Source: Hydractinia symbiolongicarpus
Lineage: Eukaryota; Cnidaria; Hydrozoa; Anthoathecata; Hydractiniidae
Direction of reading: 5' to 3'
Assembly: GCF_029227915.1 (NCBI RefSeq)
Contig: NC_079877.1
Span: 23,213,851 to 23,277,850 of the forward strand
Length of the DNA: 64,000 bases
Below, one piece after another: positions 6,085-60,459 of the stretch. Position 1 is the stretch's first letter. Every line of letters begins with the position of its first letter. A program made the position numbers and the translations under genes. The notes under the pieces are model-generated. The model did no database searches. It was given only the letters and a program-made list of their open reading frames with translations, and was not told the origin of the DNA.

Positions 6085-7065
6085 TTACAAATTCCCTGTT
6101 ACGGCGTGTTTTGATATCTGAGTACTATCAGAATTATTGTACGGCTCATTTTCTCCCTGGTGGCATAAATTCTTTAAGTCTCTCTTGACAGCTGCTGACC
6201 GGAAACCATATATAAATGTATCCCATACCGAGTAAGATTGCACCAAAAAGTTGCACCAACGATTCACATACGTGTCAACTACAATTGAATTGAAAAATAC
6301 GCGGTTGACCACGTTCGCCATAACTGCTGGAAAACTGCACAGACCAAAAACGAGAAGAATTTGTAAAGCTATCCTTGCAGCTTTTCGCTTTCGGTGATTA
6401 CCTTGGTTCTCTCTCCTGCAAAAGTAGTTGTAGATTTTCTTCTGACAAATAACCAGTATGACAAATATTATCAAGCAGTAGGTTGTAGATGAAATTCGTA
6501 CAACTGTCACTAAATTTGGGAAAGCGTAAACACACACAATGGGGAATGCCACAGACGGCACCCATATCACTAGTAACAGGTTATTTAACGTATTATTCTG
6601 AACAAACCGCTTGTAAGTGAATGGTTTAAAAATAGCTAAATATATTTCGATCGTGATGAGCGCGATAGCTGATACAGACATTACGATAAACGTATACGAC
6701 ATAACCGTCCAAACACGAACGAGCTCACATTTTGGATTTCTTTCCACAAATCCAGTCAAAAACAGCGAGTAGACTGGTATAAAAGATAGACCAGCTATGG
6801 CATCTAGAATAGATAGCAGGATATACAGCTTGTTTACTGAACTTCTCAGCTTAGTATTTCGCAGAACGATAAAAATGTATGTTCCGTTAAAAACGACGGT
6901 TAAGAGAGAGGATATAACTGAAGCAACGCTAAATGCTATTAAATTGATTCTTGCAGCATCAGTTGACAAAAACACGGTGCTGGCTTCTGAACACCAAACA
7001 TTTTCTTCAAAAACCAACGACGTGTTTGGATTAACGGATGAGTTACTTGCAGTAATATTGTACAT
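6085..7065 (-). CDS. Rhodopsin-class (class A) G protein-coupled receptor, orphan
   Basis: An intact 326-residue frame with seven hydrophobic segments, a short extracellular N-terminus with N-glycosylation sites at N3, N8 and N14, and a basic third intracellular loop (RKRKAARIA) leading into segment 6, as in class A receptors. Family landmarks, numbered from this ATG, are D88 in segment 2, C113 at the top of segment 3, W168 in segment 4 and P246 in segment 6. Several signature motifs are altered: DRY is E140-I-Y142, CWxP is CSFP (243-246) and NPxxY is DTFIY (282-286). An upstream in-frame GTG could extend the frame by 13 residues, but the ATG at 7063-7065 is preferred: it lies 5 bases after a polypyrimidine-AG acceptor at 7071-7072. 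Ligand unknown. The lack of introns is common among cnidarian receptors. Class A assignment is confident; subfamily is not. Confidence 0.88.
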   Translation of the reverse strand: MYNITASNSSVNPNTSLVFEENVWCSEASTVFLSTDAARINLIAFSVASVISSLLTVVFNGTYIFIVLRNTKLRSSVNKLYILLSILDAIAGLSFIPVYSLFLTGFVERNPKCELVRVWTVMSYTFIVMSVSAIALITIEIYLAIFKPFTYKRFVQNNTLNNLLLVIWVPSVAFPIVCVYAFPNLVTVVRISSTTYCLIIFVILVICQKKIYNYFCRRENQGNHRKRKAARIALQILLVFGLCSFPAVMANVVNRVFFNSIVVDTYVNRWCNFLVQSYSVWDTFIYGFRSAAVKRDLKNLCHQGENEPYNNSDSTQISKHAVTGNL

Positions 7066-7092
7066 GTTATCTATAAAGATAAACAAAAAGAT
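7066..7092 (-). other. Probable 3' splice acceptor just upstream of the GPCR start
   Basis: On the minus strand a pyrimidine-rich tract (cttt ttgtttatctttat) ends in AG at 7072-7071, then ATAAC and the ATG. This would serve a 5' UTR intron or trans-splicing of a spliced leader. The same arrangement precedes both deaminase-like genes. Confidence 0.55.
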
Positions 7093-7104
7093 GTTATCAC
7101 GCAC

Positions 7105-10100
7105 GTGTTCAGTAACTTTTGGTCTTAACAGACATTTATAAAGGTATCAGGTGTTATTCCATATCATTTAACTCAAATGCTACTAAGAATGCAGATGTAT
7201 TAGTTTTTAAAAACGTGTGAAAAGATGTGATACAAATTGTCAATTTATATAAGAACGTCGAGGTTTAGATTTTGCTGAATATTAAGAACGTATTAAGAGC
7301 GCGCAAAGCCTGAATTTTTTTCCATGCACTAAGAACGAAATATTTAGATTTAAAATTGCAAAGAAAAAATTATTTCCAAACAGCATTTTTGTTACTAATG
7401 ATACGTTTCATGGCGTCTTCACTATGATATAACTATAGTATCATTTAATTTCCCCAATGTTATAAAATCTTTATCCTTATAGACCATATGATCGGATTTT
7501 TTTACAGAACTATTTAATTTTCCAACTATTTCGAAATAACACAATCAAAAGCGTTTTAAAAAAAAGGTTAAAAAACAGCACGTATTCAGTCTCAGCTGAA
7601 ACTTGGACGTGTTTCTATATAAAAAAGTAAGCATACATTTTAGCTTTCACATTGTATTTTCTTAAATTTATTTCACGTATCATACAAACAATAATATAGC
7701 ATACAAGAAAAAATGATAAGTTAATAAAAATAAAAGTGATCCAAAATGACGTTATTGTAAATTTCTTATCGCAAAGCCATATGATGACAGAACATGTTGA
7801 TTTAACAGACGCATAACCCTCTTTCTTTTGGCCACTGACGATACATCCTGAAACACATTGTTTAAATCATACGCTTGTTGTATTCTCCACAAAATAACGT
7901 GATTTCCAAAACATAAATTCAACTAACTTTTAGATCGTGGCTACGAAGAAACATTAAAAGCTTAAGTTTTTTTATTAAAAGTTCAAAAGTTGCGAAACTT
8001 CTAAATTTCTTTCAAATCTACTTCTTTTATTGACAATGTTGATTATCAAACATTGTAACTTTTTTAGACATGTGAAAATGACATGACAGAATGGTAATAG
8101 AAGCAAAGTTGACATGGACTTAATATTCATGAATGAGTATGTTTGAATGTGTTGCGAAATTTCTACTCGCCTGAAAATCTCACAATACTTAACTACGACA
8201 GGAATTTGAAAGTGAATTCCAACGCGATAGCATGCCAATACTGGCGTGGTATTTACGTTTGAGTGCTTTAAAATTTTTGTGCACTTAAATATGTTATTCA
8301 CATGCGAAAATGATAGCAGACAAATGTAGTAACAAAGAAATTAGAAATTATTAGTGATTTTGTTCCACCTAAATTCTAACAGTTAGACACTGAGACTTTT
8401 TGCAGTATATTGGACATAAATTTCCTAAGATGCTCTGACAAAATCTCATCATATCATTGCAAAAATTTGTTTCCGCCTTCCTTTTTAGTTGCAATATTTC
8501 TGTTTTCAACCGAGTTTAATATTTTATTTCAAAGGAGAAAGGTGTGGGGGAAGGAAGAACGGTTCTTGTTAAAGTTTATTAAAATTAATGTCAAATAGTC
8601 TACCGATCAATTCTGAAAAGACGTTGAAGGTTTGAAGAGTACATCACCGCAAATTCCGACAAGAGTTGGAACTAAACGGACTACTTAAGCTTCTGGGTAC
8701 AAGCTACTAGCGTTTTCTAGCACCTTTGAAAATGAACCGGACAAAGGTTGTATGGGATAAGAGCTTCGCACTAGTCGAAACAGAAACATGCAACATAAAT
8801 GCAATTTTATGAAAAAATAAGACAAACATTTTTCAAAAAAAGATTTATCAAAATAGAATAAAATAAAACTAAGAAAAATATGATTGAAACCAGACTGAAA
8901 AATATCCAAAGCCTTGACAATCTTGCCTACGTAATTTCATCATTTTGTGGAAAGTTTTCCGCCTCTTTATTGGAGTATTTACTATTCTTTTACTTAATAA
9001 TCTTACTCATATCTTCTTCTTTCGTATCAATCGTGGTTTGTTCTTTCTTGATTATTTACGTCTATCTTCAGTAATTTGGTGTCCATTCATGCTGAATCGG
9101 TGATATAAGTCAGTTTTTGTAACGAAACATTAAAATACACACTTTTCAAAGCGTTTTAATTAATTGCAATTATAAAATTATTTTCAACCTAATTCGTCCA
9201 TTCATCAAGAATTAGTGCTTATTAAAGCCAAAATACTTACAAAAGTATGGTCAACGTTCAAAAGTGATCACGCTTTAGTTTCGGAGTTATAAATATTCAG
9301 CGTTCGGATGTTTTTTTAATGTTTTATATATATATAAAACCACTTCTTTGAATAAGAGCATTCATTGTGGGTTTGACGAAAGCCTATAAACTTGTACGAC
9401 AGGTGTAAACCTCAAATGAAAAAGAAGAAGAAAAAATAAACAGAAAGTAATTTTTTTGCAACGTCATGTTTCGAACGTAAATCTGAGGTATTTAATCTAC
9501 TGAATTTTTTAAATGGTTCACGCGATTTAAAGAGAAGAAATATACTTTTTATTTTCCATATTTAAGAAAAAAAAACCCTAGCAGCTGAGACGCCATCGCC
9601 TATAATATGACGCTCTGTCTATCAGTTGTATGCAAAGAAGATGCCATTATTTTTATTTGAGATAAAAGTGTTTTGTTACCTTTCGGGATGTTATGTCGAA
9701 ACCAAACTTCACGCCTACGACAAATGGTTGAGGAGATATTAGTGCTTAAATCCATCAGGACAACATCATCAACGCGTGCATTCTGAAATGATTGATTTGA
9801 TCCAGCACTAAGTTATGTTCTTCTGTTGTCACTTTATTAACCCTAGAAATTATTGGTTCATTGTTATCTATGGCAATCTGTAATATTATTGCAAAAAGCT
9901 GTGTCTGTCTGTTTGTGACCGGCAAAGTCAGTTATGTCTTCTTCAATTTTCTTTAAAAGCGCATATAACACATCTCCTAAAAACTATGTTCCGTGTTTTT
10001 TAAATCTTTTGTTTACATCATTAATTGGCTAGAACGAATCCTGTGATAAAACGAAATAATTTCACTAGCTAAAAGTTTGCTATTATATTCTTATTTTTCC

Positions 10101-18642: not shown

Positions 18643-19852
18643 ATGACCTTGAATGGTACAGCGTTCCTGAAGCTGAAGAACATATTATATGGTATTGGTA
18701 TTAGTGAATACCTTTCAGTAGACATCTTTTATCTTTAAAATGAATTGTCGCCAAATCGCTGGAATTTTTTATAAATGCTTTTAAATATTCATCAATATGT
18801 ATGCCAAAGTGAAATGGAATGTTTAAATTTCTTTGGCTTGAAACAGTCAAGACGGGATAAGATATTCAACCCGGATTATTTTATGGAAATGTTCAAAAAT
18901 GATTTTGACGAAGGTTTTTTACCTGTAAATCAGGGGAAAATATATTATGTCAACTGTGAGGTATTTGTTTTTAACGTGTAAGTAACTTTTTAAATACTGT
19001 TTTAAGTATAATGTAATTATATGGAGATGAAATTCTGAATCTTATTTCAAATAAAAAATAAAAAAGACATTTTAAAACACTGTTATAATTACTACAGTAG
19101 AACTGCACAAGTGTGAGTTTACGTTATTACGTATCATAATAACGTCGTATGGATCTTGAAAATTTTTAAACCTGAATTTGAAAATATGATACACGTTGTA
19201 ACCGTGTACTCTCAACTTACATGACTAAAACCAAATTTACGTAAGTTATGTAAGTATAAAGTGGGGCTGCAGGGTGATATCATTGATTTTAACAAACTGT
19301 CGGACGAAATACACTTCATAAAATGACATATAAAAAACTTATTCAGGTTAGTTTTTTATACTCTCTCTATTTTTATTATATAATGAGTAGAAATTCCATG
19401 TCCGTTCGGTGAGTATTAAGACAGCACCGTGTAGCGTAGCGTATCACTTTGTAATCCTGTCGCACTTTGAAGTCTTCTATTTTTAATATATTTTGTGTAT
19501 GAAATAAGCAAAAAACAGGTGACAGTTCAAATTGCCATATTTAATTCAGTTTGAACTGCACATCAAAATCATTTTTAACTTCACGTTTATATTTATGTAA
19601 AAAATTTTTAAATTTGTCTTGTAAATCATATTATAATGTTTCCATTATTACGCTCTCAAACCACAAAACCGCAAGATTGTTTAAAAACATAAATACATCT
19701 ATCACAAAAAACCTATTGTGTATCGAAATCAAGCTTGATTTTACCAATAACTAGAGAACATTGTGTGGAGAAAAAGCAACAACTTTCATGTCTTCACGTG
19801 TACAGGTACCTACAGATAAACTGGCCCAGTCATGCCCAACTGTTAGAATTTT

Positions 19853-20805
19853 TCTTAACTTCTGTCTTACCTTCGAATCAAACCATCAGAAATCTTGCAC
19901 AGAAAGTGTCGTATCTTCATTACTGAAGCGTGCCAACAGCGTAGTCAGTGACAAACAGGAGAGGAAAGAAGAAATTCGACGTGTAAGAAATGCATTAATC
20001 GCAAATGGACACTGTCATAAAATCATCATGCAAGTAGAAAATAAAATGAAGAGAAGATGCAACGGAGACAACACGGAAACATCAGAGGAATTTATCGCAT
20101 CAGCATTCCTACCCTTCGTACCAGGTACCAGCGAGATCCTTCGTCGAGTTTTAAGACAACACAAGATCAAATGCATTCTTAACTCTAAAGACACCCTAAG
20201 AAACACTTTGTCTAAACCAAAAGACAAAATAAACATGGAAGAACAAAACAATGTTGTTTACGAAATCCCGTGTAAAGATTGTGATGCAGTGTATATAGGC
20301 GAAACAAAAAGAAAGTTTAAGCAACGTGTACAAGAATATATGCGCGCAGTGAGAAACGGAGATGTGAAGAAAAACGAAATTGAGGACCACAGCTGGAGCA
20401 GAAGTCATCAGTTTAATTGGAGAATAAAATCATTGACAGAGAATCCAGAACAACGGCCAGGAAGATTAAAGAAACCATCAACAGTGTAGAACGTCACAAA
20501 CACATAAACAGGATCTCATATCAACTTCCTGAGATTTGGTTACCAGCCAAGTCGTTACTTGCATCTCGGTCCGAAAATGTTAATTACCGTAATTAACTGT
20601 AACTATCAGCTCGTTTCTGATTGGTTGTTTTTTATGAATTTCGATCCTCTGCAATTATATAAATACATGCTCAACATCATTTTACTTTGCCCGATGATGG
20701 GAGAAGGATCTCCCGAAACGTCGCCTACTAAACTATGATGTTTAAGAAATGATAAACTTTCCACAGTAATATGAATACTGAACAGACAAATAATATCTTC
20801 AATAA
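19853..20805 (+). mobile_element. 5'-truncated Penelope-like retroelement (copy 1)
   Basis: The insertion is flanked by a perfect 12-bp target duplication, TGTTAGAATTTT, at 19841-19852 and 20806-20817. It carries the end of a reverse transcriptase-type frame (SVVSSLLKRANSVVSDKQER) and then the GIY-YIG endonuclease of Penelope-like elements: IPCKDCDAVYIGETKR with the preceding CxxC and the following R of KQRVQEY. A short deletion after SHQFNW shifts the frame relative to copy 2, so the C-terminal part (conserved DNA coding RKIKETINSVER in copy 2) is out of frame. The 3' end is CTTCAATAA, as in copy 2. The element is dead and lacks most of the reverse transcriptase. Confidence 0.9.
20673..20742 (+). 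ncRNA. Hammerhead-ribozyme-like motif in Penelope-like copy 1
   Basis: A hammerhead-like layout is readable. The strand CCGATGA (20691-20697) takes the place of CUGAUGA with U4 as C. A 6-bp stem II, GGGAGA/TCTCCC (20699-20704 with 20709-20714), has an AGGA loop. GAAA (20715-20718) is followed by CGTC, so a very short stem III and a possible cleavage site after GTC (20722). An outer helix AACATCAT/ATGATGTT (20673-20680 with 20735-20742) would close stem I over an imperfect internal loop. Penelope-like elements are reported to carry hammerheads near their ends. Activity is doubtful because of the U4 change and the extra base after A9. Confidence 0.55.
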
Positions 20806-22337: not shown

Positions 22338-25300
22338 TCAATATGTATTTAAGTATCCGTAAACTTCAACTTCACATAAGTGAAACTGTGCATTATTATA
22401 TTGAACAAGTCGAACGATTCTTCCAAATATTTCCTCCTCACATTTCGAGTTCAAATTCGTAAAATCCAGCTCCTTGATAGAAGCACATGTGTTCCATTCT
22501 GTTGTATCAGCGAATTTTACCAATATTTCCAAGTTAGCGGCTCGACTACTGCAACAATCAGTACGCGGATGTAACGTTACGCTAGTTATAACTGCATTTT
22601 CCATAATGTCAACTTGCCACCAAGGTGCAGTTTCTACCATTGTGGAAAAGCAAGATAATCCTTGAATAAGATCCCCATTTGTATCTCCGTCCACGCCTTT
22701 TGAAGCTACCATTGGCTTCAAAACACGGCTTCTGTAGATGAAAGTGCTGGATTGTGTGGCAGGTTTTCCCTCCGATAATTTTATCTCAACTTAAAAGAAA
22801 ATATAAATCACCATATAAATATTGTGCTTAGCTATGTCATTAAGACGCTTTCTGTCCAGTATTTATCAAAATAAATCAGCTGTTTGAACCGAAAATGTCC
22901 TTTATATGCTAAATTTTGCGATGCATAAAATTGTTATTAAGTATAACATCGGAATTCACAGATTACGCTGCAGGAAGTCAAAGACTTCATCTTGTTTTGC
23001 TCGACATTGAACATTATTGTAAGTTCGCTACTTACTCTTCTTAAGCTAAATGTAGAAGTGGTTTTATAAACATCACCTGAATTGCAATGAGTTTTTAATT
23101 CATTTGGAAAGACTAACAAAAAATATGCTTCTAAGTAACAAACGCTATTCAATAATATAGAGGACACATTACGTTCAGAAATACTTTCTGACTAAAAAGT
23201 CAGAATAAGTCAAGGGAATTTCATATATCCAGAATTAACCCTGTTTGATTAAAAATTCACCCTGCTCTACGTCCATACTATTCTAACAAACTATTTCATA
23301 CCTCTAAATGAAAATTCACCTATTCTAATCTATTAAAACCCTTTAATCCTCTAGATTTAAATAAAATTACCACCTACGCCACCTCTCATCAATGAGCCCT
23401 CCACTCGGTTACCAAGGATAAAAAAGTTAATTAAACTTTCATATGGATTTGATTTAACGTATGCTGGTTAGGTGTTGTAGTTAATTTTTTCTGGTTAGGA
23501 TTCAATGTAAGCTAGTTAGGTGTCGCAGTTAATGCAAGCTCGTTTAGTGTCGTAGTTAATGTAATCTGGTTAAGTGTTGTAGTTAATGGAAGCTGGTTAA
23601 GTGTCGTAGCTAATGTAAGCTAGTTAAGTGTCGTAGTTTATCCAAGCTGGTTAAGTGTCGTAGGTAATGTAAGCTGGTTAAGTGCCTTAGTTTATGTAAG
23701 CTAGTTAAATGTCGTAGGTAATGTAAGCTGGTTAAGTGTTGTAGTTAATGGAAGCTGGTTAAGTGTCGTAGCTAATGTAAGCTAGTTAAGTGTCGTAGGT
23801 AATGTAAGCTAGTTAAGTGTCGTAGGTAATGTAAGCTGGTTAAGTGCCTTAGTTTATGTAAGCTAGTTAAATGTCGTAGGTAATGTAAGCTGGTTAAGTG
23901 TTGTAGTTAATGGAAGCTGGTTAAGTGTCGTAGCTAATGTAAGCTAGTTAAGTGTCGTAGGTAATGTAAGCTAGTTAATTGTCGTAGGTAATGTAAGCTG
24001 GTTAAGTGCCTTAGTTTATGTAAGCTAGTTAAATGTCGTAGGTAATGTAAGCTGGTTAAGTGTTGTAGTTAATGGAAGCTGGTTAAGTGTCGTAGCTAAT
24101 GTAAGCTAGTGAAGTGTCGTAGGTAATGTAAGATGGTTAAGTGTTGTAACTAATGTGAGCTGGTTAAGTGTCATGGTAAATGCAAGCTGGTTAGGTGTTG
24201 TAGTTATTGTATGCTGGTTAGATGTCGTAGTCAATGTATGCTGGTTATTTTGCGTAGTTAATGTAAGCTAGTTAGCTGTCTTAATTACCGTAAGCTGGTT
24301 AAGTGTCGTAGTTAATGTAATCTGGTTAAGTTTCGTAGCTAATGTAAGCTGGTTAAGTGTCGTAGTTAATGCAAGCTGGTTAAGTGTCGTAGTTAATGTA
24401 AATTGGTTAGAAGTCGTAGTCAATGTATGCTGGTTATTGTGCGTAGTTAATGTAAGCTGGTTAGCTGTCTTAATTAACGTAAGCTGGTTAAGTGTCGTAG
24501 TTAACGTAAGCTAGTTAGGTGTCGTAGTTAATGTAAGAAAAAAATTTAATTTGTTTTACTTCAAGTTATTCGCGTATCAGTAGCTTAATGACATAATTAT
24601 ATTCAACGGTTTGAGACCAAAACGCTATAAATTTGTGTGTTATCTCAACAATTTTCTTTGTAGAATGAATTCAAATTCGACTGTTGTTATTTTTGTACAT
24701 AGAACATTTGTATAAAAGATTAGTCAACGTTTAAAGAAGAGGGGGTAAACTATGAGAATGATTTGAATACTTTTTAATTTTTATAATATTTACAAAAAAC
24801 ATAATTTCAATCAAGACCTCTGGCAAAATAAAATTATTTCTACTTTTGTTTAGCTATGAAATTGAAGTTAAAAACATAAGCGCACGCAACATTTATTTTC
24901 TTTGACAAGCATAATTTTTATTTTGAAAGTTCTTAGGCACTCAAATCCTGAGACATGACCAAATCTGGATTTTTTTTGAACGAGCCAAAACGCTTTAAAT
25001 CAAAGTGTATTTAAGAGAATATTCTACCTTACGCTTTCTAAGAAAATTCCTACTGCGATTGTGTTTTTCTACTCACCTTTTTGACATGTACTTCCAGCAT
25101 AACCTTGCGAACATGAGGACTAGAGTAAGGAATAAAAAATAATTATTTACGGGTTCTTTAGGTCCGCTTTCACTCTCATCCCCTATGGGAAGAGCTATGG
25201 ATATTGACTTTATTCTGTTTTCTTTCAAAATTCTTAATTGTTTCTGTAATAATTTCATCAAACCTTTGCACTTCATTTGTGGATAAAATTGCAAGTAAAA

Positions 25301-44800: not shown

Positions 44801-44802
44801 TC
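38859..44802. other. Long gene-poor stretch with minor repeats
   Basis: No confident gene. Items seen are a short perfect palindrome AAATGCTGAC-A-GTCAGCATTT at 39815-39835; a 'ggcccggcggagcaattttg' block at 40531 that resembles the end of a common cnidarian element (low confidence); imperfect 'attcaacgtt' repeats near 42862-42897; and an imperfect palindrome around 44063-44113 ('atatcattccac' and its mirror). The minus-strand frame at 44284-44484 (VTKIMKAGFVFWKPRIESPA) has no splice or homology support. Confidence 0.4.
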
Positions 44803-44823
44803 TTTTTGTTTTTCTTTTTTAGG
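44801..44823 (+). other. Polypyrimidine-AG acceptor just upstream of the 44824 gene
   Basis: The sequence TCTTTTTGTTTTTC followed by TTTTTTAG ends at 44822, one base before the ATG at 44824. The run is a strong 3' splice site and makes an upstream TTG start implausible. It could take a spliced leader or a 5' UTR exon. Confidence 0.65.
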
Positions 44824-45750
44824 ATGTATCTTTGCATACAGGTGTTAAAACTAATTGGCCTCGTCATACCTTATAGTATCTGCATTGATCAAAGCCATTT
44901 CGATGTGTTCGCACCAGCGGGAGGAGTGCCTTGTAGGAAACAGTACGCTGTTTTGTACATGACTGCCGAAAGAATGACTGATTCTTTTCATCCCCCACCA
45001 ACTGGTTATAATGACGATATTCTACAGGTTGGCAACAACTATGCTGCAACATGCATGAACGAGACGATCAGAGATTCTCATACGGAGCCAACAGTACTGG
45101 CTAGATTTGACCATCTAGTTTCGAAATTTCAAGAAACGTATGGTAATAAGAAAAAACCCGATCTTTACTTGTACACAAGATTAAGTCCTTGTACCGACTG
45201 TTCCTCTAAAATTGCAGAGTTTGGTCAAACCAATATGCGTGGTATTGCAAATAATCGTTTGCAGTTGTCTTGGAGTAAAACTTTCATAGGCCGACCACCT
45301 CCTACGCCTCATCAACAATATTTAATTAGCTTGCAAACCTTGCTTGCAACCGAACGTGTGAAATTAAATTTAACACCAGATCTAACATTGATGCAGGGTA
45401 ATATGTGCCAATGTTTACAAAACAGGGATGACATCAGTGATTTTTTTAGAAGAGACTACGAGTTGAACATTGCCAACATTGTAAACAGGTTAGCATTTCA
45501 ATGCGCGAACAAGGATAAAAGTAACGAGATTCGAAACTGGGAATGCTCGACAGGAAGTCTAAAAGACTCTTTAGGCCAGAACTGTAAGCGACTGGAACAC
45601 TACCTTGAAGATTGCCTTAGTAGAAGTTGGGAACTCGGTCCGCCTTTGTCTCCGCGACGTCCTATGCAAGTCAGTAGTAACCTCAGGGACGTAACAGGTT
45701 ACTACTTTCCTCCGCCTGCGCAATTCATCTTTTCTCGTTGTGCTTTGTAA
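44824..45750 (+). CDS. Predicted secreted deaminase-fold protein (AID/APOBEC-like, SNAD-type)
   Basis: A single open exon codes 308 residues. Residues 1 to about 20 (MYLCIQVLKLIGLVIPYSIC) form a signal peptide. The next part follows the cytidine-deaminase order: strand KQYAVLYM, strand NNYAATC, helix with H86-T-E88, strand LYLYTRLS and helix with PC123-TD-C126. H86, C123 and C126 would bind zinc and E88 would be the proton shuttle. Later strands and helices (RLQLSW, QQYLISLQTLL, VKLNL) fit the fold, and the C-terminal third is Cys-rich (about six Cys), as in an extracellular disulfide-bonded protein. A paralogue lies at 59386-60459. The motif HTE/PCxxC matches AID/APOBEC enzymes; metazoan secreted members (SNADs) are described in the literature as I remember it. 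Substrate is unknown and no pathway is shown. Confidence 0.72.
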   Translation: MYLCIQVLKLIGLVIPYSICIDQSHFDVFAPAGGVPCRKQYAVLYMTAERMTDSFHPPPTGYNDDILQVGNNYAATCMNETIRDSHTEPTVLARFDHLVSKFQETYGNKKKPDLYLYTRLSPCTDCSSKIAEFGQTNMRGIANNRLQLSWSKTFIGRPPPTPHQQYLISLQTLLATERVKLNLTPDLTLMQGNMCQCLQNRDDISDFFRRDYELNIANIVNRLAFQCANKDKSNEIRNWECSTGSLKDSLGQNCKRLEHYLEDCLSRSWELGPPLSPRRPMQVSSNLRDVTGYYFPPPAQFIFSRCAL

Positions 45751-45846: not shown

Positions 45847-45852
45847 AATAAA
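45847..45852 (+). other. Likely poly(A) signal AATAAA
   Basis: AATAAA lies 97 bases after the stop codon of the deaminase-like gene, a normal distance for cleavage and polyadenylation. Confidence 0.5.
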
Positions 45853-46597
45853 ATTGAGTCTGCGGCAGATTTCACGACGTTTTTAGAAGAACTCAAAGTT
45901 ATATCTATCTATTTATGAATTTCTTTGTTTTTAATCTTTGCTTCTAATCCTGATCAAACTGTAAAAACAACACATGACTACACTTGTCAATATAAGTTAC
46001 ACTTTAATGTTTAGTTTATCTTAATTTCTTTTTAAGTGTGGAGAGTTTGGAAATTGTATTTCATAATCAACAACGTATTTCAGAACAATACTATTTAATA
46101 TGTAATTGTTTTCAATTATAATTCCGTTAATGAATGCATTGTTTTGATGCACTATTTAACGAATTAGTAATCTCCTTAAAAGGCGTCGAACTCACAGGTT
46201 TTTCGAAGGAAATGCAGACTGGCAGAATAAAAATATTAGCGTTCGAGCAGAGTGCACAGGACTCACTGTAACATCATGGCATAATGACAAAATTTCGCAC
46301 AATAATTTTTAAAGGTTGCTGCTTGTGCCTCCCATCACTATATGCAATGACAGTCATTGTGGTCAAGAATGCTATCTTAACTCCTGTTCATGGTTTTGGA
46401 AATGTATTATGACCGTCCCCCACCCTCTTTATAAATTTTGTTTTTTTTCTACACTTTTACTACGTCATGAAAGGAACTAAAAGGGAACAATAGTTTTTAT
46501 GTGATGTTAATTACTATAGTTCTAGAATAAATTTATCACTTTGCTTTAAGTTTCTGGCAATACAAGAATATAGCTACATATTCTACAGATTTTTTTA
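45853..46597. other. Intergenic stretch after the first deaminase-like gene
   Basis: AT-rich sequence without gene or repeat signals that I can recognise. Confidence 0.4.
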
Positions 46598-46805
46598 GAG
46601 GTTGGCGTGATCACATGTTAATCGTTTCCACCGCTCATACCTAAAGTGCAGTTTTCAACATTAAATGCCACGCAGGAAGCGGTGTGATCAAAATTTATTT
46701 AGAGGTTGCCGTGATCACATGTTAATCGTTTCCACCGCTCATACCTAAAGTGCAGTTTTCAACATTAAATGCCACGCAGGGGGCGGTGTGAGCCATATTG
46801 TTTGT
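46598..46805 (+). repeat. Two tandem copies of a 104-bp unit
   Basis: The block starting 'gaggttggcgtgatcacatg' at 46598 repeats at 46702 with almost no change. Its end ('cagttttcaacattaaatg' then 'gagccatat') is related to the DNA just before the modules at 49978, 52829 and 54849, so this is an older start of the same repeat family. Confidence 0.85.
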
Positions 46806-49300: not shown

Positions 49301-51165
49301 GGAATATTCTTGATTTTGTTCCATTTTTCAATTTTTATCCCACCATTCCAAAGCTTGAAATACAATGTATAGATCTCCAGCCAATTCGATTGCCATTTCC
49401 TTAAGTATTGGCCCACTGATGGTACATTATCACTTCGCCTAACAAAGAATCATTTATGCACAGCTTAAGTCGCTCGTACTTATCCGGTTTTTGCGGAGAG
49501 AGACTTTTGACCCACTTACCCAAATATTTTTTATGGTCATTTCTTCCGCAAAAATCCGGTTGGTCGAGACACGCCATTTTCAGTTAAGATCAGGTCGGCA
49601 TACAGCATTAGCCACGTGATTCATAAGTTACTCTTACTAATATCACATGACATTTCCTCAGATACATAGCGCTTGAAACGAAAATTTAGTTGATGATAGC
49701 TTGATGATAGGGTAGAAGGGTATTTTGAGGAAAACGAAGAAAGGGTATGTACAGCTAGTAGATCACTATTTCTTTACATTGATGAACCCCTTCTTATCCT
49801 TACTGCCACCTAAAGCTAGCTAGTATAAAACTGCCCACTTAGCTGGCATAATAACAGAACTTAGATAACATATAGCTAGCTTACTTTAACCGTTTAGCTA
49901 GCTATAAAAAAAGGGCTATAGCATAAAACTAGCTACAAAGCTAGCATAAAATTAACTACATAACTGGGATAAAACTACATTAAGGGGGAATAGAGAGCCA
50001 TATTTTCATGGACAATTGTAGCTAGCTATATATATTGTACACACGTCAGGAAATAAACTTTTTTAACCCTGCCGCTGAGCATACACCAGTGCGGCTGAAG
50101 TTACAGAAGGGAAAATTATTTCAATACTCGTTCAATCGTCAACATGTATTAAAAATCTCCAAGTGTATTCATTCTTTCTTACCTAATTTCACGATATGTA
50201 TACAAATAATGTCCCAATAATTTCTGTTTTTGTAACTTGACCCGATCCTTACACATGTGGCTCTAATGATGTTTTTGTTCAGTCTGAAATAAGATATTTT
50301 TATCCTATTGTCATGAAGACTTGTTTGCAAACAAAACATATAGTGCTATTTGATTTTTAGCTGCACTGGCTAACAACAGGCTGTTTCTGCTGTGTTTTTG
50401 TAAACCGAAGTTGCAGTAAAGGTTTTTTTAAAAATGTATTACGGCTGTCCGATTTTATGATTAATTTTTGAAACTTTTCCCATAAAATATTGCAGGATTC
50501 TTTAGGAGCTTAAAAACAGGTTTTGAACAGTGTTTTTATTTTTAAATGATACAAAAACTTTTCCGCAAAATAAAATTGCTGAATGATTGTTTTAGCTGTG
50601 TAGGATAACAACAGGGTGTTTACTGTCTGTTTATGTGAACCAAAGTTTTTTCGGATGTGCGCCACAGTATATTTGTACTAATCACTCAGCCTAGTGTTAA
50701 CGACAAGCTATTACCTGTGTTTCTATTTAACAGAAGTTGTGCTAAAGTTATTTTCAAAGGGTTTGTTTACCTATACTAATGGCGCACCACAGATTAAAGT
50801 ACATATATATTTTAAGTTTTACCGGGAACATTTTGTGAAACAGTTTTCGCTATGACATTGCACAATATGTAAATTGTGTTTCTATTCAAGCTAAAGTTAA
50901 AGGAAATATATATTTTGTGAATCTGAAAAATATAATTACACACCCGACACACCTTTAATGTTGTGTGTTTCACTCGATTTATGATATACTGCACACCTGT
51001 ACTAAAGCGAGCCACCTGAATGTGTGGTACAGTTTAAAATTTGTATTAATTGTTCCATCAAGCGTTTAACGCCAGGTAACACAGTTACTTGTGGCTTAAC
51101 CAGCGTGAATTCCTAAGTGTATATAATACTCACCTGTAAAGTTTTGTATATATATTTATGTTTAT

Positions 51166-51840: not shown

Positions 51841-52922
51841 ATATTGATTGCGGAGAGAGAGCCATTGCTCGAACGGAGCTATTTTCCTCGTTCCCATAAA
51901 TATATTAGAGCGTGACAAATTTCCGCGTTTCCCCCTAGTACGTGAAATTTTGATGAAAACGTGGGCGTTTTTGACCCACTTACCCCACTTTTTTTATGGT
52001 CATTTCTTTAAAAGGTTCCGTGAAAATCTGGCTAATCGAGACCACGCCGTTTCCAGTTGAGATCACGTCGGCATGGAGCTTTTGCCATGGTCACTTTTAC
52101 TAATATCACGTGACCTTTTCTAAGATACTTAGCGCTTCAAACGGAAATTGCGTTGATAGCCATATTGGCTTGTTGGTCGCAATGGACAGAAGTTCATTTT
52201 CAAGAAACGAAGAAAAGGTATGTTTAGCTACCTGATATATCACTATATTTTTACATGTAATGATCCCCTTCTTAGCATTTCTCACACCTAAAGCTAGCTA
52301 GCATAAAACTGCAGACTTAGCTGCAATAATAATAGAACTTAGATAGCAAACTATATAACTACATATAGCTACTTCTTGTTTGCTCTTTTTATGCTAACTA
52401 GCTAGCATAAAAAAGAGCAAACAGTGCCATATAGCTAGCATAATACACTAGCTACACAGCTAGCATAAAATTAACTACTTACATGGGTTAAAACTACCAA
52501 TGTAGCTAACATAAAATTAGCTATTTTTGCTAGCATAAAATCAGCTACATATCACCATAGAAAAGTTGTTTTTAACATATTTTCTAACTAGCTAGCTAAC
52601 TAGCTATATATATACTACACAGTGAGTGAGATAATTCTACTCTTTAGAAATGTCCCATCACATAGATTGTTCTAGCTACAATCATCCACAAAATTTCTCG
52701 TCTCTACTGGCAATTTTATTCCAAAAACCAAGAACTAAAAAGTTTAGATATTTTGCAGATAGTATGTTCATGAAGGTATGTCACGTGTAATCGTTTACCT
52801 TGCTGAGCCACAAAGGTCAGTGTTTAACATGAGGGGGAATGGAGAGCCATATTGGACGATTGTAGTTATATATATATTGTACGCACGTCCAGGAAATGTT
52901 TCATCAAATCGAAGATGAAACC

Positions 52923-53459
52923 AGTGTATATAGGCGAAACAAAAAGAAAGTTTAAGCAACGAGTACAAGAACATATGCGCGCAGTGAGAAACGGAGATGT
53001 AAAGAAAAACGAAATTGCGGACCACAGCTGGAGCAGAAGTCATCAGTTTAATTGGGATGAGAAGAAAATCATTGACAGAGAATCCAGAACAACGGCCAGG
53101 AAGATTAAAGAAACCATCAACAGTGTAGAACGTAACAAACACATAAACAGCATCTCGTATCAACTTCCTGAGATTTGGTTACCAGCCCTACAGAAGAAGT
53201 AGTTACCTACATCCAGGTCCGAAAATGTTAATTACCGTAATTAACTGTAATTATCAGCTCGTTTCTGATTGGTTAAATTTTATGAATTTCGAACCTCTGC
53301 AATCATACAAATACATGTGCAACATCATTTTTCTTTGCCCGATGATGGGAGAAGGATCTCCCGAAACGTCGCCTACTAAACTATCATGTTCAAGAAATGA
53401 TAAACTTTCCACAGTAATATGAATACTGAACAGACAAACCAAAATAATATCTTCAATAA
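52923..53459 (+). mobile_element. 5'-truncated Penelope-like retroelement (copy 2)
   Basis: Flanked by a perfect 12-bp target duplication GAAGATGAAACC (52911-52922 and 53460-53471). The copy starts inside the GIY-YIG endonuclease frame (VYIGETKRKFKQRVQEHMRA) and reads through the conserved tail, HSWSRSHQFNWDEKKIIDR and RKIKETINSVER to LPALQKK and a stop, so the last about 95 codons are open. The non-coding 3' part and end (CTTCAATAA) match copy 1. It can make no complete protein. Confidence 0.92.
53321..53390 (+). ncRNA. Hammerhead-ribozyme-like motif in Penelope-like copy 2
   Basis: Core and stem II are identical to the copy 1 motif: CCGATGA, GGGAGA/TCTCCC, GAAA at 53363-53366 and GTC at 53368-53370. 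The outer helix AACATCAT/ATCATGTT has one mismatch here. Confidence 0.5.
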
Positions 53460-54552: not shown

Positions 54553-56045
54553 AACTAGCTAGCTAGCTATTATACATATATACTACGCAGTAGGTGAGAT
54601 AATTCTACTCTGTAGGAATGTCCCATCATACAGCTTGTTCTAGCTACAATCGTCACAAAATGTGTTGTCTCTGGCAATTTTATACCAAAAACTAGGAACA
54701 ATAAAGTTTAGCAAAGTCAGCAAAAGAACATAGCCAGCTAGATATTTTTCAGATAGTACGCTCTGTTCTCACTCATGATTAATGTTTATATACATGTATG
54801 TCACGTGTAATTGTTTACATTGCTTAGCAACAAAAGAGCAGTTCTTAACATTAAGGGGGAATAGAGAGCCATATTTTCATGGACGATTGTAGCTAGCTAT
54901 ATATATTGTACACACGTCAGGAAATAAACTTTTTTAACCCTGCCGCTGAGCATACACCAGTGCGGCTGAAGTTACAGATGGGAAAATTATTTCAATACTC
55001 GTTCAATCGTCAACATGTATTGAAAATCTCCAAGTGTATTCATTATTTCTTACCTGATTTCACAATATGTATACAAATAATGTCCCAATAATTTCTGTTT
55101 TTGTAACTTGACCCGATCTTTACACGTGGCTCTAATGATGTTTTTGTTCAGTCTGGAATTAGATATTTTTATCCTACTGTCATGAAAACTTGTTTGCAAA
55201 CAAAACATATACTGCTATTTGATTTTTAGCTGCACAGGCTAACAACAGGCTGTTTCCGCTGTGTTTTTTTAAACCGAAGTTGCAGTAAAGGTTTTTTTAA
55301 AAATGTATTACAGCTGACCGATTTTATGATTAATTTTTGATCTAGCACAGAAACTTTTCCCATAAAATATTGCAGGATTCTTTAGGAGCGTAAAAACAGG
55401 TTTTGAACAGTGTTTTTATTTTTAAATGTTACAAAAACTTTTCCGCAAAATAAAATTGCTGAACGATTGTTTTAGCTGTGTAGGATAACAACAGGGTGTT
55501 TACTGTCTGTTTATGTGAACCAAAGTTTTTTCGGATGTGCGCCACAGTATATTTGTACTAATCACTCAGCCTAGTGTTAACGACAAGCTATTACCTGTGT
55601 TTCTATTTAACAGAAGTTGTGCTAAAGTTATTTTCAAAGGGTTTGTTTACCTATACTAATGGCGCACCACAGATTAAAGTACATATATATTTTAAGTTTT
55701 ACCGGGAACATTTTGTGAAACAGTTTTCGCTATGACATGGCACAATATGTAAATTGTGTTTCTATTCAAGCTAAAGTTGAAGGAAGTATATATTTTGTGA
55801 ATCTGAAAAATATAATTACACACCCGACACACCTTTAATGTTGTGTGTTTCACTCGATTTATGATATACTGCACACCTGTACTAAAGCGAGCCACCTGAA
55901 TGTGTGGTACAGTTTAAAATTTGTATTAATTGTTCCATCAAGCGTTTAACGCCAGGTAACACAGTTACTTGTGGCTTAACCAGCGTAAATTCCTAAGTGT
56001 ATATAATACTCACCTGTAAAGTTTTGTATATATATTTATGTTTAT

Positions 56046-59385: not shown

Positions 59386-60459
59386 TCAGTCCCTTTTACA
59401 TTTTTCTTTTTCATAAGGGGACACATCCGAAGTTCCTCTAACATCATACGCGCTGTTGCTTCTTTTACCGGTAATAGGATCGATGGCGGGACCTAAACCT
59501 ATTTTTTTGGATTTTTTCGGTGCGCATTTTGCAACAGCGTCAGCCATTTTGGGACATTCTGTAACTTTACAAGTCCAACAATTGGCCTCGTACAGTTTGG
59601 ATGAACCTTTTTTTAATTCCGTTGTTCCACAGTGCCAAGTCAGCGTATTAACAATTTTTATGATGTTCTCGTCAAACTTTGATTTATCTGTAAAGTATTC
59701 TTCTTTTGCTTCCTTTTTCAAACAATTGATAACTTCATTCTGTAAAAAAGATGATCTTGGCGCCTGTTTGTCTGCAAATCCTTCTGGACGAACGACAAGT
59801 TTAACTTTCTCCTCTGTAGCGGTATTCTGCTGCAACAAAGTATTTAAAATATATAGATACTGTCTCGAAAGTGGTTGCATACCTATCCCAAGAAACTTGT
59901 CCCATGCAATATAAATCTTGTCTAACTTTGCTCGATGTGTGTTGATGTAGTTGTTAATCAGTTCTGAACAAGACCCCCCACCACATTGATTTTTTACAGA
60001 ATGATTCGCTTTACAACATGGAGTATTGTAAGAAAACAGGTACCAATTTGGATTCTTGCTTTTTTCTTTTTTAAAGTTGTCTATCTTGCTCTCTAATTTC
60101 GGCAGTAACATTGCTTCTGTGTGAACACCTGTGGGTCCACCGATAATAGCTGCTAAATAATTATTGCCATCAATTATCTTATCTGCTGGAAATGCTGTGG
60201 GAGGTGGATCTAGCGTAAGGGTAGGCGCATCAGACAAATAAAAAACAGCATATTGGCGTATGCGTTTAGAACTTTTAGCCGGTGGCTCCCCGTCGTTGTC
60301 CCCACCATCAGTACCTGATGCAGCTGTAAGTTGAGTAGCAAGAGGTGAGAACGTTTTGCTTATCTGTTCAAATAAGTTCTCAATAGCATCACATGTTACG
60401 AGGTTGTTATTTAGATGCACACACGTGATTGCAAACACAATTAAGATGACGTTCTTCAT
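59386..60459 (-). CDS. Predicted secreted deaminase-fold protein, divergent paralogue
   Basis: A single open exon of 357 residues. The N-terminus (MKNVILIVFAITCVHLNNN) is a signal peptide. A linker of about 45 residues is followed by the same order as the 44824 gene: RQYAVFYLSD, DPPPTAFPADKIIDGNNYL, H113-T-E115, WYLFSYNTPC148 and C164-SELI. Between PC148 and C164 there is a 15-residue insert with extra Cys (C149, C159), where the paralogue has PCxxC; zinc pairing by C148 and C164 is my reading. The later helix (RQYLYILNTLLQ), KVKLVV and a C-terminal Cys set (WHC, NCWTC, ECP, AKC, EKC) also match, including NIIKIVNTLTWHC against NIANIVNRLAFQC. Overall identity is low, so the two genes diverged long ago. 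Catalysis and substrate are unproven. Confidence 0.7.
   Translation of the reverse strand: MKNVILIVFAITCVHLNNNLVTCDAIENLFEQISKTFSPLATQLTAASGTDGGDNDGEPPAKSSKRIRQYAVFYLSDAPTLTLDPPPTAFPADKIIDGNNYLAAIIGGPTGVHTEAMLLPKLESKIDNFKKEKSKNPNWYLFSYNTPCCKANHSVKNQCGGGSCSELINNYINTHRAKLDKIYIAWDKFLGIGMQPLSRQYLYILNTLLQQNTATEEKVKLVVRPEGFADKQAPRSSFLQNEVINCLKKEAKEEYFTDKSKFDENIIKIVNTLTWHCGTTELKKGSSKLYEANCWTCKVTECPKMADAVAKCAPKKSKKIGLGPAIDPITGKRSNSAYDVRGTSDVSPYEKEKCKRD

Follow-up and report, generated by a model that had tools for sequence, protein, structure and literature searches.

A 64-kb stretch of contig NC_079877.1 (C3; C3:23213851-23277850, hereafter the window) of Hydractinia symbiolongicarpus contains two divergent paralogues, P0001 and P0002, each with a single coding exon. 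P0001 probably encodes a secreted, zinc-dependent AID/APOBEC-like deaminase (AAD) of the SNAD kind, closest to SNAD4 (Secreted Novel AID/APOBEC-like Deaminase 4), in a hydrozoan gene family. SNAD4 is the best Pfam match of P0001 (E 8.3e-6, 26.3 bits), ahead of NAD1 (E 7.5e-5, 23.4 bits) and APOBEC2 (E 9.8e-5, 22.9 bits), with APOBEC_N (E 6.9e-4) and dCMP_cyt_deam_1 (E 3.1e-3) lower in the list. A paralogue on contig C4, P0007, exceeds the cut-offs of both SNAD4 (33.4 bits versus 27) and APOBEC_N (25.4 versus 25). The SNAD4 model (130 positions) is matched over its core only, at positions 22-79 by P0001 and 12-83 by P0007, and the only other SNAD model in the Pfam lists is SNAD3, for P0004 at E 0.081. 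An earlier note had read P0001 as a candidate secreted AID/APOBEC-like deaminase that could be a hydrozoan branch of the SNADs, and the profile search agrees, ranking this secreted clade first and placing the C4 paralogue over its cut-off. Judged from these scores, the AAD-like label is firm; the choice of SNAD4 among the clades is a best guess, since the scores of the AAD clades differ by few bits.

The residues of P0001 fit this assignment. The first 20 residues are hydrophobic (Kyte-Doolittle mean of 2.08 for the best 19-residue segment, which starts at residue 3), consistent with the signal peptide previously claimed. The HTE and PCxxC motifs described in the same note are present, with H86, E88, C123, and C126 at the positions it gave, and its Cys-rich C-terminal third corresponds to an extension with six cysteines conserved throughout the family. 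N-glycosylation sequons are found at N79 and N182.

P0001 is a real gene belonging to a real family. Its frame is uninterrupted from ATG to stop, with zero in-frame stops, and simulating the window 200 times with a first-order Markov model gave no ATG-initiated open reading frame (ORF) longer than 186 amino acids (aa), compared with the 308 and 357 aa of P0001 and P0002; a chance ORF is thereby ruled out for P0001. Pseudogenes can also be ruled out for both genes, as the frames are open and family-wide residues are retained. A pyrimidine-rich tract with AG ends one base upstream of the start codon, and an AATAAA hexamer lies 96 nucleotides (nt) 3' of the stop, so that P0001 reads as a one-coding-exon gene; the tract and AG may represent the end of an intron in the 5' untranslated region or a spliced-leader trans-splice acceptor. 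Downstream of P0001, a 104-bp unit is present in two head-to-tail copies (93%; window 46589-46796).

P0002, which was absent from the earlier note despite lying in the same window, is convergent with P0001 at a distance of 13.6 kb and shares 25% identity with it over 289 columns (E 9e-19). Its N terminus is hydrophobic, and it carries an HTE and a PCC motif. Between the two genes is a direct repeat of ~0.8 kb (window 49977-50769 and 54848-55649, 4.87 kb apart, 95-99% identity).

The search of the genome assembly (480.9 Mb, 76 contigs) identified at least 14 family loci: six intact (P0001, P0002, P0004, P0005, P0006, and P0008), two open but without part of the core, and six interrupted, the status of the last being taken from search tables or from reading the loci. 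C3 carries nine of the 14. Where a copy is interrupted by just one stop or frame change, an assembly error could be the cause. The two open but incomplete copies, L009 and L010, are highly similar, lie 2.8 Mb apart, and have lost the second zinc cysteine and the residues after it through a common internal deletion; L010 has no ATG at the start position of L009, and the two may be either damaged copies or exported nonenzymes. P0007 is the longer frame of the copy at C4:23.73 Mb, and its best genome match besides itself is P0001 (E 9.9e-6). A shorter upstream frame at that locus has a hydrophobic start and a segment, QFAVVF, similar to the QYAVLY of P0001. One further protein, P0003, was retrieved from a protein collection with an alignment of P0001 and P0002 and is 78% identical to P0002 and 91% identical to P0004.

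Nine sequences (P0001 to P0008 and L017, which ends at its stop) were aligned, P0007 without its first 41 residues, since MAFFT misaligned its HAE when that stretch was included. P0001 is only 24-29% identical to the other members, yet HxE is present in all nine (HTE in eight, HAE in P0007), as are both presumed zinc cysteine columns. The C197 column is likewise complete (9/9), and the other five C-terminal cysteines are found in 8/8 sequences, the ninth row ending earlier. Spacing of the presumed zinc cysteines is variable: P0001 has 2 intervening residues, P0007 has 7, and the remaining seven have 15-16. Those seven share two additional cysteines inside this longer loop, which may form a disulfide or a second metal site; P0003 has four cysteines in the zinc loop, six at the C terminus, and no others. 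Hydrophobic N termini recur across the family by inspection and were measured for P0001 to P0003. The Cys-rich C-terminal part of P0007 (residues 145-234; L011:1259-2101) has a weak Pfam match to SNaCT11, Short NACHT-associated C-Terminal domain 11 (E 0.0084, 16.8 bits, cut-off 27). A rough probability of 8e-7 that eleven residues would all be retained against a background identity of 28% assumes independent sites and was not used.

The ratios of nonsynonymous to synonymous substitution rates (NG86) were 0.33 for P0002/P0004, 0.51 for P0005/P0006, and 0.24 for L017 (up to its stop)/P0008, which indicates purifying selection in three close paralogue pairs, the last of which includes an interrupted copy. 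In all five intact genes examined, the ATG follows a pyrimidine-rich tract and AG (at 1 nt in P0001 and 10 nt in the four others; P0008 lies outside this count). An mRNA copy would have lost such an acceptor; retrocopies are therefore disfavored, and the arrangement argues for duplication at the DNA level. A spliced leader is added to some Hydractinia transcripts (PMC11067881), and the upstream AGs of the family may be trans-splice acceptors. A tree of this family placed P0001 with P0007 (80/85), but both are long branches for which the tool gave a warning, and the grouping was not relied on.

Table. Features of P0001 and P0002 (window positions) and of the other family loci (contig positions)
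Feature	Position	Strand	Basis
P0001, candidate secreted AID/APOBEC-like (SNAD4-like) deaminase, 308 aa, single coding exon	44824..45750	+	ORF, Pfam, simulation
P0001 pyrimidine-rich tract and AG, one base before ATG	44802..44822	+	sequence
P0001 putative signal peptide, about residues 1-20	44824..44883	+	hydropathy only
P0001 HTE (H86, T87, E88), presumed zinc ligand and catalytic Glu	45079..45087	+	sequence, alignment
P0001 PCTDC (P122-C126), presumed zinc cysteines C123 and C126	45187..45201	+	sequence, alignment
P0001 C-terminal extension, six family-wide Cys (C197, 227, 241, 254, 264, 306)	45412..45741	+	
P0001 AATAAA, poly(A)-signal-like hexamer	45847..45852	+	sequence
P0002, divergent paralogue, 357 aa, single coding exon	59386..60459	-	ORF list, homology to P0001
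P0002 pyrimidine-rich tract and AG, 10 nt upstream of start codon	60470..60482	-	sequence
P0002 HTE (H113-E115)	60115..60123	-	sequence, alignment
P0002 PCC...C...C (P147-C164), 15 residues including two further Cys between presumed zinc cysteines	59968..60021	-	
P0002 six-Cys C-terminal extension (C246, 277, 294, 302, 312, 354)	59398..59724	-	
First of three poly(A)-signal-like hexamers after P0002	59312..59317	-	sequence
P0004 (L005), intact	C3:23.50 Mb		
P0005 (L006), intact	C3:27.09 Mb		
P0006 (L008), intact	C3:27.21 Mb		
P0008 (L018), intact	C11:6.97 Mb		
L009, open stop to stop, without second zinc Cys and stretch behind	C3:31.16 Mb; L009:1075-1863	-	
L010, open stop to stop, without second zinc Cys and stretch behind	C3:33.98 Mb; L010:1168-1917	-	
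L017, interrupted, one stop	C15:0.68 Mb		
L011 (P0007 locus), interrupted, frame change	C4:23.73 Mb		
L002/L004, interrupted	C3:17.14 Mb		
L003, interrupted, partial	C9:22.77 Mb		
L014/L022, interrupted	C3:26.10 Mb		
L021/L023/L026, interrupted	C4:23.92 Mb		

Elsewhere in the window, an ORF on the minus strand (6088-7146) has a rhodopsin-family receptor domain (7tm_1, E 2.7e-13), and another (22341-22790), probably an exon, has an F5/8 type C (galactose-binding-like) domain (PF22633, E 3.6e-14). On the plus strand, a GIY-YIG-like ORF (19755-20486; PF01541, E 4.6e-4, below the cut-off) has the segment YIGETKRKFKQRVQE in common with a shorter ORF (52828-53199), and these two are perhaps mobile-element remnants.

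Several results weigh against the assignment of P0001 and its relatives to secreted AADs. The SNAD4 score of P0001 is 0.7 bit below the Pfam cut-off of 27. P0002, P0003, P0005, P0006, P0008, and L017 matched no AAD model in Pfam at E values up to 10, the damaged copy L009 matched none in its Pfam scan, and the SNAD3 match of P0004 is its sole AAD match; the second, P0002-like clade is consequently tied to the AADs through P0001 only. The P0007 locus, which gives the strongest profile score, has a change of frame near the N terminus. PDB sequence searches returned no match to a deaminase, an NCBIfam search with P0001 nothing relevant, and a fold comparison nothing at all. Two AlphaFold2 models from shallow alignments had mean predicted local distance difference test scores of 32.9 and 42.6, too poor to establish the strand and helix order of the deaminase fold given in the earlier note. 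The first has a deaminase-like order (strand 41-46, helix 88-106, strand 113-118, helix 127-137, and helix 162-175), which at such confidence is no evidence, and the strands of the second (P0002 core) differ from it. The 33 residues between E88 and P122 exceed the 25-30 of classic AADs, and once residues 1-20 are removed P0001 is left with nine cysteines outside the zinc pair; because this count is odd, complete disulfide pairing is not assured. A search of the protein collection with P0001 alone retrieved only P0001 itself and no ortholog. P0001 also has no close intact relative, and the case for selection on it rests on the kept active-site and cysteine residues.

The same fold and zinc site could serve a secreted nucleoside or nucleotide deaminase acting on free extracellular cytidine or deoxycytidine in salvage, signaling, or digestion. 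A free nucleoside requires no access to a genome, and dCMP_cyt_deam_1 also matches P0001, but four AAD models outscore it and P0007 reaches the APOBEC_N cut-off, which leaves this explanation unlikely. A similarly small probability is given to an exported pseudoenzyme or nucleic acid binder, in which fold and cysteines are kept while catalysis is not the selected function in at least some members. The persistence of HxE and both zinc cysteine columns in all nine sequences speaks against it, as does PCxxC in P0001 despite its low identity to the rest; the open-frame copies L009 and L010, which lack the second zinc cysteine and the stretch behind it, and the separation of the presumed zinc cysteines by 15-16 residues in seven of nine sequences speak for it.

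An effector directed at prey, predators, or competitors from secretory or stinging cells, akin to bacterial toxin deaminases, is very unlikely. The broken relative L002 includes a fragment with a Toxin-deaminase match (E 2.8e-3), but AAD models score higher in the same scans for P0001, P0007, and the fragment itself, and two short peptide patterns, searched in each of two collections without animals, gave 110 pattern matches in viral_contigs and 90 in genome_contigs with no relative confirmed. It is also highly improbable that the protein is not secreted, with the N-terminal hydrophobic stretch acting as a membrane anchor or the true start lying elsewhere. The acceptor-like AG 1 nt before the ATG of P0001, the recurrence of hydrophobic N termini, and the six conserved cysteines all oppose this possibility, although the leader was judged by hydropathy only and 6 of 38 analyzed fish SNAD1 proteins were modeled with a membrane-anchored N-terminal region (PMC11004436).

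For the secreted AAD of P0001, the parts of the proposal differ in strength, as graded subjectively. An AAD-like deaminase fold is very likely, and export is likely. The P0001 protein would enter the endoplasmic reticulum, and the six C-terminal cysteines would form three disulfides stabilizing the C-terminal extension. Zinc would be held by H86, C123, and C126, with E88 shuttling the proton. Activity on single-stranded nucleic acid is slightly favored and would convert C to U in microbial or viral single-stranded DNA or RNA, whether extracellularly, within vesicles, or following endocytosis. A role in defense is tentative and somewhat short of an even chance. Birth and death driven by defense would suit this family because its paralogues are divergent, interrupted copies equal intact copies in number, and the loop between the zinc cysteines is variable. 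More speculative, and doubtful as a whole, is a hydrozoan extracellular mutator defense, in which fast-turnover, exported, disulfide-locked cytidine deaminases would edit viral or microbial nucleic acids outside the cytosol, and in which the zinc loop of one clade, rebuilt to include two additional cysteines (as a disulfide or a second metal site), might make activity dependent on redox state or metal.

Both the catalytic activity of SNADs and their biological role were stated as unknown in 2021 (PMC8201067) and again in 2024 (PMC11004436). CRISPR/Cas9 knock-in has been published for Hydractinia (PMC6122657), so an intact SNAD-like family there would make the role of a secreted APOBEC-like enzyme directly testable outside vertebrates. 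PMC13402138 treats carp SNAD1, the APOBEC passage of PMC8129030 concerns lamprey receptors, and the words “apobec” and “deaminase” do not occur in the main text of the Hydractinia genome paper (PMC11067881). Among open-licence literature on Hydractinia or cnidarian APOBEC-like proteins and SNAD4, no report of this hydrozoan deaminase family was found by title or abstract start. The 2018 PNAS paper that defined the SNADs reportedly lists cnidarian AADs, and the novelty of a cnidarian SNAD4-like family is therefore provisional. If the assignment is true, the SNAD4-like branch is extended from sponges to cnidarians, unless that paper had already done so.

SNADs are treated as a secreted branch apart from the classical AADs (PMC11004436, PMC8201067), and SNAD4 (PF18750) has been reported from sponges in the same sources. 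The hydrozoan family resembles SNAD4 in its best Pfam model (P0001 and P0007), its HxE and PC...C motifs, and its predicted nature as a secreted AAD-like protein. Unlike the reported sponge SNAD4, it is hydrozoan and multicopy; the six-Cys C-terminal extension of the hydrozoan proteins may be a further difference. Fish SNAD1, with a signal peptide in most members and several genes per genome in carp and zebrafish (PMC11004436), shares with it the zinc motif, conserved C-terminal cysteines, and multiple genes, and the SNAD1 signal peptide has a putative counterpart in the hydrophobic N termini of the hydrozoan proteins. However, SNAD1 has a CVxxC context, a three-Cys C-terminal cluster, and 2-4 exons (PMC11004436), whereas the hydrozoan family has SPCxxC or PCC...C, six C-terminal cysteines, and one coding exon. 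Classical AADs are intracellular, with PCx2-4C and 25-30 residues between E and P (PMC11004436). Classical AID/APOBEC and other AAD clades (APOBEC_N, APOBEC2, APOBEC4-like, NAD1, and NAD2) share the zinc-site pattern and account for secondary Pfam matches but score below SNAD4 here. The bacterial toxin deaminases (Toxin-deaminase and XOO_2897) have the zinc site of the superfamily in common with the hydrozoan proteins but give weak matches only, to the L002 fragment as above and to P0007 (E 0.04).
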